A DNA stretch of 64,000 nt, from assembly GCA_029263415.1 (NCBI GenBank), contig JAJCXN010000044.1:186001-250000 (forward strand), in the 5' to 3' direction. How positions within the stretch are numbered: the stretch's first letter is position 1; each line of letters begins with the position of its first letter. The DNA is from Acidobacteriota bacterium (GTDB lineage: Bacteria; Acidobacteriota; Thermoanaerobaculia; Multivoradales; Multivoraceae). A program made the translations under genes and the position numbers. Positions 54,635 through 59,458 of the stretch are shown piece after piece. Below the pieces are notes generated by a model that saw only the letters and a program-made list of their open reading frames with translations, ran no database searches and was not told the origin of the DNA.

Positions 54635-55054
54635 TCAAACATCGGGTTCCTGCTCGTCGAGGAGATCGAGGATCGGACACTCGGTTCGAGGATCCGTGAT
54701 TTCACAGAGGTCGTGAAGCTCTGTTAGAGCTCGACTCATTTGCTGAAGAGCGCGTGTGCGGCGCTCGATGTTCTCGAGCTTGTTGGCGATCTGTTCACGG
54801 ACCTCGCCGCACAATGCCGCTGATCCCGTCCGCAAGGCAAGAAGTTCTCCGATCTCTTGCAGCGAGAAACCGAGGTTCTTAGCACGACGGATGAACTTCA
54901 AACGGCGAACGGTCTCCTGCGGGTAGTCCCGATAGCCTGACGAAGGTCTGCGTGGAGGATCCGCGATCAAGCCACGCCGCTCGTAGAAACGGATGGTCTC
55001 AACACCAACACCCGCCTCGCTGGCCAACTGTCCTATTGTCAGGCTCTGCGACAT
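54635..55054 (-). CDS. merR: MerR mercury-responsive regulator
   Basis: A 139-residue MerR-family regulator. The N-terminal winged helix has LTIGQLASEAGVGVETIRFY followed by ERRGLI, typical of MerR. Three cysteines fall at residues 82, 117 and 126, which are exactly the Hg(II)-binding positions of Tn501 MerR; the dimerisation helix lies between. This is strong evidence for mercury sensing rather than copper or zinc. The promoter in front has a mer-type operator (55061-55092), and its -10 element ends only 6 bases before the ATG, so the mRNA is probably leaderless. It is divergent in position from, but also seems to control, the operon beginning at 57234. Confidence 0.93.
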   Translation of the reverse strand: MSQSLTIGQLASEAGVGVETIRFYERRGLIADPPRRPSSGYRDYPQETVRRLKFIRRAKNLGFSLQEIGELLALRTGSAALCGEVREQIANKLENIERRTRALQQMSRALTELHDLCEITDPRTECPILDLLDEQEPDV

Positions 55055-55060
55055 AGGAGC

Positions 55061-55092
55061 ACTCTAAACCCTGTACCACCGTACGGAGTCAA
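55061..55092 (-). promoter_or_regulatory. mer-type operator/promoter of merR
   Basis: On the minus strand: -35 TTGACT (55092-55087), then CC GTAC GGTG GTAC, and a -10-like TAGAGT (55066-55061) after a long spacer of 19-20 bp. The GTAC-N4-GTAC dyad and long spacer are hallmarks of mercury MerR promoters, and the first part (TTGACTCCGTAC) equals that at 57102. Confidence 0.85.
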
Positions 55093-56843: not shown

Positions 56844-57233
56844 TCCGTCTCCTCCCCAATCGTACTCGACGGTAACACCGCGGGCGAGTGCCGCAAGGGT
56901 CACCGCACTTCGGGAGATCTATCAACCTAAGAACGCATGCCTGCCCCCCCAAGAAGTCGATGTCGGCGTGGCCTGACACGGTCGAGCAGCGATGCGAAGA
57001 ACTGCTGCGACCTTGGAGCGCAAGAAGCTCCCCACGAGTGTCTTGTGGGTACTCGGACTGTCAATCACGGCGTCCAGCGGGTCGCGGAGCACAACCGTTC
57101 CTTGACTCCGTACCATGGTACGAGGTTTACGATGGGCCCATGGCATGTCTAACCACTTCGTCTCACCGCGTAACCACCAGCAACGGCCGAACCTCGCCGT
57201 GGGCTCTGGGGTCTGGCCTGCGAAAGGCATCGG
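56844..57233. other. Divergent intergenic region holding the mer operator
   Basis: About 390 bp between the metallopeptidase-like gene (minus) and the CopZ-like gene (plus). The mer-type operator/promoter at 57102-57133 lies here. Very short frames downstream of it (about 57141-57241) lack ribosome-binding sites and are not called. Confidence 0.6.
57102..57133 (+). promoter_or_regulatory. mer-type operator/promoter of the copZ-like / merT-like / selenoprotein operon
   Basis: -35 TTGACT at 57102-57107, then a perfect 14-bp palindrome CGTACCATGGTACG (57109-57122) containing GTAC-N4-GTAC, then a -10-like TTACGA or TACGAT after a 19-20-bp spacer. This is the layout of Tn501-type mer promoters and closely matches the one in front of merR, so the merR product should control this operon. 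Confidence 0.88.
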
Positions 57234-57692
57234 ATGAGTGACGACTGCTGCGACGTCCCAGCGACCAACGGCACTGGATGTTGCCCTGTATCCGGAACAG
57301 CCGGCCAGTCAGTGAAGTGGACCACCGTGTCAGCAATGACTTCGGGGCCAGTGCCGCCGCGTCAAGACTTGGCGCTTTGCTGCGATGCCGAGTGCGAAGT
57401 CGTTTACTTCGGCGAACACGGACTCACGCTTCGAACGAATGAGGTCCGTGTGGTTCCTGGCTTCAAACTCGGAGCCGAAGACCTGGTCTGTTACTGCTTT
57501 CTGCACTCTCGAGAGGCCATCACCACGGAAGCAGAGATCCTCGGAGAGAGCCCGACGCTCGAATCCATCCGAGCCAGTGTGAAGAAGAAGGAGTGCGCGT
57601 GCGAGGTTCGCAATCCGGCCGGCAAGTGCTGCCTCCGCGACGTTCTACGAGTCGTCGACGCCGCAATCTCAAAAGAGGGAGTCACCGAATGA
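57234..57692 (+). CDS. CopZ-like iron-sulfur / zinc metallochaperone domain protein
   Basis: A 152-residue cysteine-rich protein without signal peptide. Cysteine clusters: CC at residues 5-6 and 16-17, CC and C in LALCCDAECEVVYF, CxC in LVCYCFLHSREAI, CAC in KKECACEV and CC in GKCCLRDV. This fits the N-terminal domain of Archaeoglobus-type CopZ, which holds a zinc and a [2Fe-2S] cluster (BFD-like); the usual C-terminal HMA domain is absent. Proteins of this family are often found with mercury or copper genes. It is the first gene after the mer operator and overlaps the next small gene by 4 bp. A role in handling or reducing the incoming metal is inferred. Confidence 0.8.
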   Translation: MSDDCCDVPATNGTGCCPVSGTAGQSVKWTTVSAMTSGPVPPRQDLALCCDAECEVVYFGEHGLTLRTNEVRVVPGFKLGAEDLVCYCFLHSREAITTEAEILGESPTLESIRASVKKKECACEVRNPAGKCCLRDVLRVVDAAISKEGVTE

Positions 57693-57790
57693 AACCGCTT
57701 TCCCTAGTTTGCAGGTGCACCTGTGGTTTCGGCTGTCTGGTTGGCTCTGTGATCTTCGCCGTCACCCTCTTCCAGCGGTTGAGCCTGTGA
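57689..57790 (+). CDS. 33-residue cysteine-rich single-span membrane peptide
   Basis: A very short gene, too small for standard callers. Its ATG lies inside the stop of the CopZ-like gene (ATGA) and its stop overlaps the GTG start of the MerT-like gene (GTGA), so it is the middle link in a chain of coupled genes. The peptide has four cysteines close together (CRCTCGFGC, residues 8-16) followed by a hydrophobic helix (LVGSVIFAVTLF). It could bind Hg(II) at the membrane and pass it between transporter and chaperone. I know no named family. That it is translated is inferred from the perfect overlaps. Confidence 0.65.
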   Translation: MKPLSLVCRCTCGFGCLVGSVIFAVTLFQRLSL

Positions 57791-58158
57791 CCACCAAACA
57801 CAACGTCGGCGCGTGGAGCGCGGCCACTACAGGAGCGGGAGCCGCGGTACTCGCCACCGCCGCCACAGCTTGCTGCGTACCCATCCTCGCACCCCTTTTG
57901 GTGAGCGTACTCGGAGTGTCAGGAGCGATCTGGGCGGCAAATCTAGAGCCTTACAGCCTTCTCATCCTGCTCGCATCAGCCCTTGTCCTAGCCTACGGTT
58001 TCTGGGCCGTATACCGGGTGAGGCCGGTTGCTGAGGGTGAGCTGTGCCCGACGAAGCGCCCATTGCCCATACGAACGATCCTTTTGTTCTCGGCTCTATT
58101 GTGGAGCGTCGCCCTGGTGGTGAATGTCCTCCGTCTCTTGAATGTGCAATTCAGATAG
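57787..58158 (+). CDS. merT: MerT-like mercuric ion transporter
   Basis: A 123-residue membrane protein with three helices. The first helix contains the adjacent Cys pair (Cys29-Cys30 in ATAATACCVPILAP), the Hg(II)-binding site of MerT; a single Cys87 lies in the loop after helix 2, where MerT usually has two. The start is GTG at 57787, overlapping the stop of the small upstream gene; longer frames to 57709 run through that gene in another frame. No MerP is present; the small Cys-rich peptide or the selenoprotein may fill that place. It should move mercuric ions to the cytoplasm. The symbol reflects similarity. Confidence 0.82.
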   Translation: MTTKHNVGAWSAATTGAGAAVLATAATACCVPILAPLLVSVLGVSGAIWAANLEPYSLLILLASALVLAYGFWAVYRVRPVAEGELCPTKRPLPIRTILLFSALLWSVALVVNVLRLLNVQFR

Positions 58159-58177: not shown

Positions 58178-58756
58178 ATGAATCCCAACAGAACTCTCAA
58201 GGGCAAGAAGCGCTTACTCGCCGCAGGAGTGATCGCCTGCGCTTCTCTGGCAATGGCCCAGGCTGGAGCAAAACATGACGGGGTGATCAGTCAAGACTTC
58301 GAGCCATTCCGTTCGGCCTTCAACGCGGCCTCGGGTAACGTGCGCGCGGTGCTCTTGGTGGGCCCCACGTGAGGGGTTTGTCTTCGGGGGGTCTCCGAAG
58401 TCGACAAAGCATTCAAAGAAGCCGGCATTTCAAATCTGACCGTGCTGGTGATCAACTCCGATCAGCTCGGAGCAAAAGAGAAGCACGTTGCGAACGCCTC
58501 GAAGCTGATGAGCGGTGACAACGTCCACCACTACTGGGACGGCGAAAAGCACGTCGGGAAAGCGATCCAACCTATGATCGAAGGCCTGAGCCAACCGGCC
58601 TGGGACTTCTGGATGCTCTATGAGCCCGGTCGAACCTGGGGGGAGGCCGCCCCAGAACCGGATTGGTGGGAGCACCAACTCGGGGGCCTCCCTCAGAACA
58701 GGAAGCTAGACGCAGTACGCTTCGCTGAGAAAGCTAAGAAGCTCGCCAGACAGTAG
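58178..58756 (+). CDS. Exported thioredoxin-like selenoprotein (UxxC), UGA read as selenocysteine
   Basis: The frame from ATG 58178 (GAAGGA upstream) to TAG 58756 is 192 codons with one internal TGA at codon 65. Residues 1-33 form a signal peptide. The TGA lies exactly at the first Cys position of a thioredoxin-type active site: VLLVGPT-U-GVCLRGVSEV, giving UxxC (U65, C68). Sequence after it continues in the same frame without damage (VHHYWDGEKHVGKAI, WDFWMLYEPGRTW), matching a family of thioredoxin-like proteins with the HYWD motif. A SECIS-like hairpin follows immediately (58382-58400). It is 19 bp after merT in the mer-controlled operon. A periplasmic role in reducing or carrying mercury is inferred; known selenocysteine-assisted organometal systems use a comparable thioredoxin-like (seleno)protein. 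Confidence 0.88.
58370..58372 (+). other. In-frame UGA codon, predicted selenocysteine (residue 65)
   Basis: TGA sits in place of the first Cys codon of a CxxC-type motif, with intact coding sequence on both sides and a hairpin downstream at the distance used by bacterial SECIS elements. Confidence 0.85.
58382..58400 (+). promoter_or_regulatory. Predicted bacterial SECIS hairpin
   Basis: A perfect 6-bp stem CTTCGG / CCGAAG closes a 7-base loop GGGGTCT; outer bases can add a few more pairs (G80-C102 and neighbours). The loop contains GGTCT, the same core as the apical loop of the E. coli fdhF SECIS, and begins 15 bases after the UGA, within the usual range. It lies inside the coding region, as bacterial SECIS elements do. 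Confidence 0.8.
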
Positions 58757-59032: not shown

Positions 59033-59458
59033 ATGTACAAAAAGAACTCCATCGCCACCCTAGCCGCACTGGCTATGGCTCTGTTCGCACCCCTCTGGTG
59101 CGATTGTGCAGAGGCAAGCGTGGATCAGTCGGCAAGTGCCCAGGTGATGCCTGACGCCGACCTCGCTCGGCCAGGCAAAGAACACTGTGCGGAGACGGAC
59201 TCAGAGGGTCCAGCGGAGCTGCCTGACAAGGATCAATGCTGCGACTCAGCAGCAGCGACCTGCCCCACCCTTGAGCGCGCAGACGCTCAAGAGCCTGCTC
59301 CAGAAGCAACGGAGTGGCCTTCAGCACGTCTTGCTGCGCTGATCCCAAGCGCCGAGGAAGGGGGCTTGGCACCGCCAAGAGCCTCTATGCCACCACGGTG
59401 GGAGCCTCAGCTCTCTCTCCCGCCGCTCTTCACACTTCATGGCGCCTTTCTAATCTAA
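59033..59458 (+). CDS. CopL-like cysteine-rich exported metal-binding protein
   Basis: A 141-residue protein with a signal peptide (IATLAALAMALFAPLWC). Cysteines cluster in the mature part (WCDCAEAS, EHCAETD, DQCCDSAAATCPT), then a Pro-rich tail ends with PPLFTLHGAFLI, the typical closing pattern of small CopL/DUF2946-like proteins that precede metal efflux operons. The ATG at 59033 gives a proper signal peptide; a longer frame from 58949 does not. It lies 70 bp upstream of the cusC-like gene. It may bind copper or mercury in the periplasm; exact metal unknown. Confidence 0.7.
   Translation: MYKKNSIATLAALAMALFAPLWCDCAEASVDQSASAQVMPDADLARPGKEHCAETDSEGPAELPDKDQCCDSAAATCPTLERADAQEPAPEATEWPSARLAALIPSAEEGGLAPPRASMPPRWEPQLSLPPLFTLHGAFLI

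Follow-up and report, generated by a model that had tools for sequence, protein, structure and literature searches.

The stretch of DNA that was analyzed (the window) is 64,000 nucleotides long, and a small open reading frame (ORF) of 33 codons lies on its forward strand at 57689-57790, wedged between two genes for metal handling. The upstream gene (57234-57692, forward strand) encodes a 152-aa copZ-like metallochaperone of the zinc-ribbon plus 2Fe-2S type, which matched PF18423 (zf_CopZ) above the cut-off and scored 99.8 bits with NF047645, for which the cut-off is 100. The downstream gene (57787-58158, forward strand) encodes a 123-aa inner-membrane transporter with a GTG start and a CC pair in its first helix. 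It is called MerT-like here because its PF02411 score of 29.3 bits is below the cut-off of 32.9. The protein is 58-66% identical to four relatives. The start at 57787 is supported by relatives, since the corresponding position is where their proteins begin; a TTG at 57709 was therefore rejected as the start. No evident Shine-Dalgarno sequence precedes the GTG in the window.

Next on the forward strand is a gene for a 192-aa thioredoxin-like selenoprotein (58178-58756), with an in-frame TGA at 58370-58372 in the motif TUGVCLRGV; neither Pfam nor NCBIfam has a model that it matches above cut-off. The TGA is kept in six other genomes, all with full-length SelA, while one genome (G382) has a cysteine at this position and SelA matches that are only partial and borderline; across the relatives, the presence of SelA follows the TGA. 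Further downstream are TolC-, CusB- and CusA-like genes. Ahead of them, at 59036-59458, a Cys-rich protein with a hydrophobic start and no Pfam match is encoded.

A divergent regulator gene of the MerR type is located at 54635-55054 on the reverse strand, and its product is most similar to two structures of Hg MerR, 4ua1 and 5crl. The alignment with them shows that each of the three cysteines that bind Hg in MerR is present, whereas in CueR the first of these positions is not a cysteine; the TIGR02051 score (135.9 bits) is below the cut-off of 150.85. A mer-type promoter/operator, TTGACT-19 bp-TTACGA with the dyad CGTACCATGGTACG, is present ahead of the copZ-like gene at 57102-57132 on the forward strand, and a 19-bp spacer is typical of MerR-type promoters. 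No occurrence of the operator sequence TTGACTCCGTACCATGGTACG, which lies at 57102, would be expected by chance. A near copy precedes merR at 55072-55092 on the reverse strand, and similar sites were found at a paralogous locus and in three other genomes (G002, G041 and G069). There is no merA among the window operon genes described here; in the paralogous operon, at a distance of 49 kb, the first gene encodes a MerA above cut-off. Because of the Hg-type regulator and the MerA of the paralogous operon, the window operon is most likely mercury-responsive, with mercury as the metal, and copper or silver may be the metal for the downstream efflux genes.

The small ORF and its predicted peptide

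The small ORF encodes the 33-residue peptide MKPLSLVCRCTCGFGCLVGSVIFAVTLFQRLSL. One membrane helix is predicted, and the cysteines, at positions 8, 10, 12 and 16, are in its N-terminal portion. Its ATG overlaps the stop codon of the copZ-like gene (ATGA, 57689-57692), and its TGA (57788-57790) overlaps the merT-like GTG (GTGA, 57787-57790). An earlier sequence-only reading had drawn attention to these overlaps and to the length of the peptide, and its coordinates proved exact when the sequence was read again. A Shine-Dalgarno-like GAGGGAG, recognized from the sequence, lies on the forward strand at 57675-57681, within the 3′ end of the copZ-like gene and 7 nt 5′ of the small-ORF ATG.

AlphaFold2, run without an alignment, predicted a single helix from residue 4 to residue 31 with a mean pLDDT of 88, and the top 19-residue hydropathy segment spans residues 10-28, with a value of 2.05. 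By both results, the cysteines belong to the helix itself, at its N-terminal end and over its first stretch. The sequence-only reading had described CRCTCGFGC followed by a membrane helix; a single helix is predicted here too, but with the cysteines inside it and not in a separate segment before it.

Searches of Pfam, NCBIfam and PDB sequences gave no match for the window peptide, searches of Pfam and NCBIfam gave none for its relatives, and the window had no Rfam match. In the literature covered by our searches, no description of such a peptide was seen. The small ORF is probably a previously unnamed gene.

Copies of the small ORF and operons that lack it

Searched with the window peptide, the whole genome gave one weak match (E 0.7). 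It is located on the same contig, at a distance of 49 kb, and occupies the corresponding slot in the second mer operon of the genome (L059, 4403-7801). The gene order there is merA, merT, an HMA gene of the MerP type, a copZ remnant, the small ORF and a broken merT-like gene. The merA product scored 530 bits with the equivalog model TIGR02053 (cut-off 454), and the merT product matched PF02411 above cut-off. The copZ remnant has 41 residues, and the last merT-like gene keeps only about 40 residues before it gives way to a reverse-transcriptase fragment; the small ORF between them is intact and is followed by a 14-nt gap.

The paralogue peptide, MKPLALICKGVCAVCCLLGCAVCALFTISLL, is 39% identical to the window peptide in the alignment, which scored 65 compared to 13 ± 7 for shuffled sequences. 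For this one pair, and over this short stretch, 18 of 23.5 synonymous sites and 24 of 69.5 nonsynonymous sites differ (pS 0.77, pN 0.35), and the signal is frame-specific (Fisher p 0.0007 in the ORF frame, compared to 0.63 and 0.81 for the two alternative frames). The sequence-only reading had proposed a synonymous-substitution analysis as a check on the frame, and the coding pattern it looked for is present in this frame only; the comparison points to purifying selection acting in the small-ORF frame and in no other.

A third copy was found in G002, a genome of the same GTDB family but of a different genus, where a syntenic Cys-rich ORF of 32 residues (MRTNCRTLCRTTCVLCSATCLGLLALFGGPAL) begins 4 nt past the copZ-like stop and ends in a stop that overlaps the merT TTG (TTGA). 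By itself, the similarity of its peptide to that of the window falls short of significance (shuffle p 0.16) and that to the paralogue peptide is modest (shuffle p 0.03), and the identity of this ORF rests mainly on its position, in addition to length, cysteines and hydrophobicity. Shine-Dalgarno-like sequences similar to that of the window precede both the G002 ORF (AAGGGAG) and the paralogue ORF (AAAGGA). In the alignment, the three copies share C8, C12 and C16 (window numbering), spaced approximately one helical turn apart, and one hydrophobic helix. The cysteines form a stripe on one helix face in G002 (p 0.003) and in the paralogue (p 0.016), whereas in the window peptide, in which C10 points away from the Cys face, the stripe is not significant (p 0.51).

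The search for relatives of the MerT-like protein covered the order (72 genomes), the class (148) and a sample of the phylum (396). In G041, which belongs to the same order, CopZ and MerT are directly joined by an ATGA overlap with no small ORF between them, and in G044, G051, G062 and G069 merT has other upstream neighbours and there is no such ORF. A profile of the three peptides, run against the class (148 genomes), brought out no clear match beyond the copies already known; the remaining matches (E above 0.01) were short, partial and mostly within longer open frames. At the inspected loci of the order and phylum samples, L073 left out, no comparable ORF was seen 3′ of the other readable copZ-like genes. 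The MerT-like protein had no match on plasmids and none in viral contigs. The plasmid relatives of the CopZ-like protein are distant, and in three of their neighbourhoods no gene like the small ORF is listed. One scan of genome contigs with this single protein as the query, the MerT-like one, gave one weak match, to an archaeal bin, which was judged spurious.

At some loci, other predicted membrane proteins follow the copZ-like stop. In G069 the slot holds a 128-residue membrane protein with no Pfam match; a Cys-bearing membrane protein of this length, NARRCGRRHCYLTGPFFL, likewise with no Pfam match, comes after the copZ-like stop at L069, and a similar protein occurs in L091. In L090, a 47-residue ORF with one hydrophobic stretch and no Pfam match starts 9 nt past the copZ-like stop and ends in GPGCGC. 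It is possibly another small Cys membrane peptide after copZ-like, with the layout reversed.

Within what was searched, the small ORF is thus confined to three copies in two genera of one family. Because G041 joins CopZ and MerT directly and no other inspected copZ-like locus has the ORF, it is a lineage-specific accessory gene and not a core part. The sequence-only reading had expected a conserved small frame between the copZ-like and merT-like genes, and had named direct CopZ-MerT spacing without the frame as the observation that would speak against it. The frame is conserved in the paralogous operon and in G002 and is missing from the five genomes named above, so that the general conservation implied by that reading is wrong; the direct spacing occurs in G041 and not in the lineage of the three copies. 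Absence elsewhere leaves the conservation within the lineage intact.

Possible function and significance of the peptide

The small ORF is probably real and a helper of mercury transport. We lean towards the view that it is translated, coupled to both neighbours, into a single-pass inner-membrane thiol-relay microprotein that assists the MerT-like transporter. Translation of the copZ-like gene would lead into the small ORF by translational coupling, and the merT-like gene would be coupled likewise. The basic N-terminus would be inside, which would place C8, C12 and C16 at the cytosolic entrance and in the first part of the helix. If the microprotein packs against the MerT-like transporter, then Hg(II) or another soft metal could be passed by thiol exchange from the intramembrane CC of MerT to the microprotein and on to the cytosolic CopZ-like chaperone. 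Published work shows that Hg(II) transport by MerT and MerE requires the vicinal cysteines of their first helix (PMC5715351). The relay is supported by the paralogue ORF, kept intact although copZ has shrunk there, by the syntenic ORF of G002, by the in-frame excess of pS over pN, by the conserved Cys positions, by the confident single helix and by the mer context. It is opposed by G041, according to which the transporter has no general need of the ORF, by the restriction to three copies in one family, by the non-significant similarity of the window and G002 peptides and by the non-significant Cys stripe of the window peptide. Of the metal-relay design put forward in the sequence-only reading, a real coding frame tied to metal handling is supported by conservation, substitutions, Shine-Dalgarno sequences and operon, and the relay itself is plausible.

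The main rival is that the ORF is a leader for translational coupling, which carries ribosomes from the copZ-like gene to a weak merT-like start while the peptide itself has little function. The stop/start overlaps on both sides fit such a leader, as does the window GTG with no evident Shine-Dalgarno sequence. It is weakened because the amino acids are under selection (pN well below pS), because G041 couples CopZ directly to MerT with no need of a linker, and because the G002 merT has its own ribosome site, CGGAGGG. The paralogue ORF is followed by a gap in place of an overlap, and folding of the region against shuffles, which was also used to look for an RNA attenuator, revealed no unusual structure (z -0.24). 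We consider the leader unlikely.

A small membrane peptide for metal buffering or redox, either a thiol sink or an electron donor or acceptor for the selenoprotein, would not be a relay subunit of MerT at all. The peptide is Cys-rich, and the selenoprotein gene lies 3′ of the ORF in both intact operons that have the ORF. Five operons have the selenoprotein without the ORF, however, a buffer would hardly be expected to be built as a hydrophobic helix and no CxxC is common to all copies, and this role seems rather improbable to us. A chance open frame with no function is very improbable. The frame is short and absent from most related operons, and a composition-matched simulation gave an open frame with at least 4 Cys and a hydrophobic stretch in 4% of trials. 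Chance would, however, have to account for the same slot, length, cysteines and hydrophobicity at three loci in two genera, for the frame-specific purifying selection and for a Shine-Dalgarno-like sequence before each copy. The earlier judgement that chance is unlikely agrees with the homologue in the same slot of the second operon, the frame-specific coding substitutions and the syntenic ORF in another genus.

In terms of known proteins, the peptide resembles MerE, MerF and MerT in its mer operon setting and its small, hydrophobic character, and in those proteins first-helix cysteines carry Hg(II). MerE and MerF are two-helix proteins of about 80 residues, whereas the window peptide, with 33 residues and one helix, cannot alone form such a two-helix unit and has no detectable sequence similarity to them. 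No MerT (PF02411), MerE or MerF profile matched it, and it has one predicted helix where members of these families have two or more, with a vicinal Cys pair in the first. The small ORF would encode a small mer membrane protein of a different, minimal architecture, known so far from three copies.

KdpF and CydX are single-helix microproteins of about 30 residues that are bound to transporters and encoded inside operons of membrane complexes. The window peptide shares their size, single helix and gene position but has a row of thiols that they are not known to have, and the likeness seen is one of architecture. Another family of very small Cys-rich single-helix ORFs, coupled to an iron transporter gene, is likewise only predicted to be translated (PMC8749426). 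The metal there is iron and not mercury; even at E 10 the window peptide gave no Pfam match to that family, and its neighbours are the copZ-like, merT-like and selenoprotein genes. In the iron-linked family the helix is N-terminal and the cysteines C-terminal, the reverse of the window peptide.

The thiol-relay microprotein may, as a tentative extension, represent a new family of microproteins in which a single helix serves as a metal relay. Its cysteines, roughly one to each helical turn, would be lined up from the cytosolic face of the membrane inwards, and along this row Hg(II) would be handed from a MerT-like transporter to a CopZ-like chaperone of the 2Fe-2S type, with a selenoprotein alongside. 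Provided that the peptide is produced and acts together with MerT, every other mer transport protein known to us would be much larger, and small frames between metal-resistance genes would be hiding functional subunits. The peptide would also provide a minimal system, a single helix carrying four to six cysteines, in which the movement of Hg(II) along membrane thiols could be studied, and would help to explain an operon type built on a CopZ-like chaperone and a selenoprotein and not on MerA.
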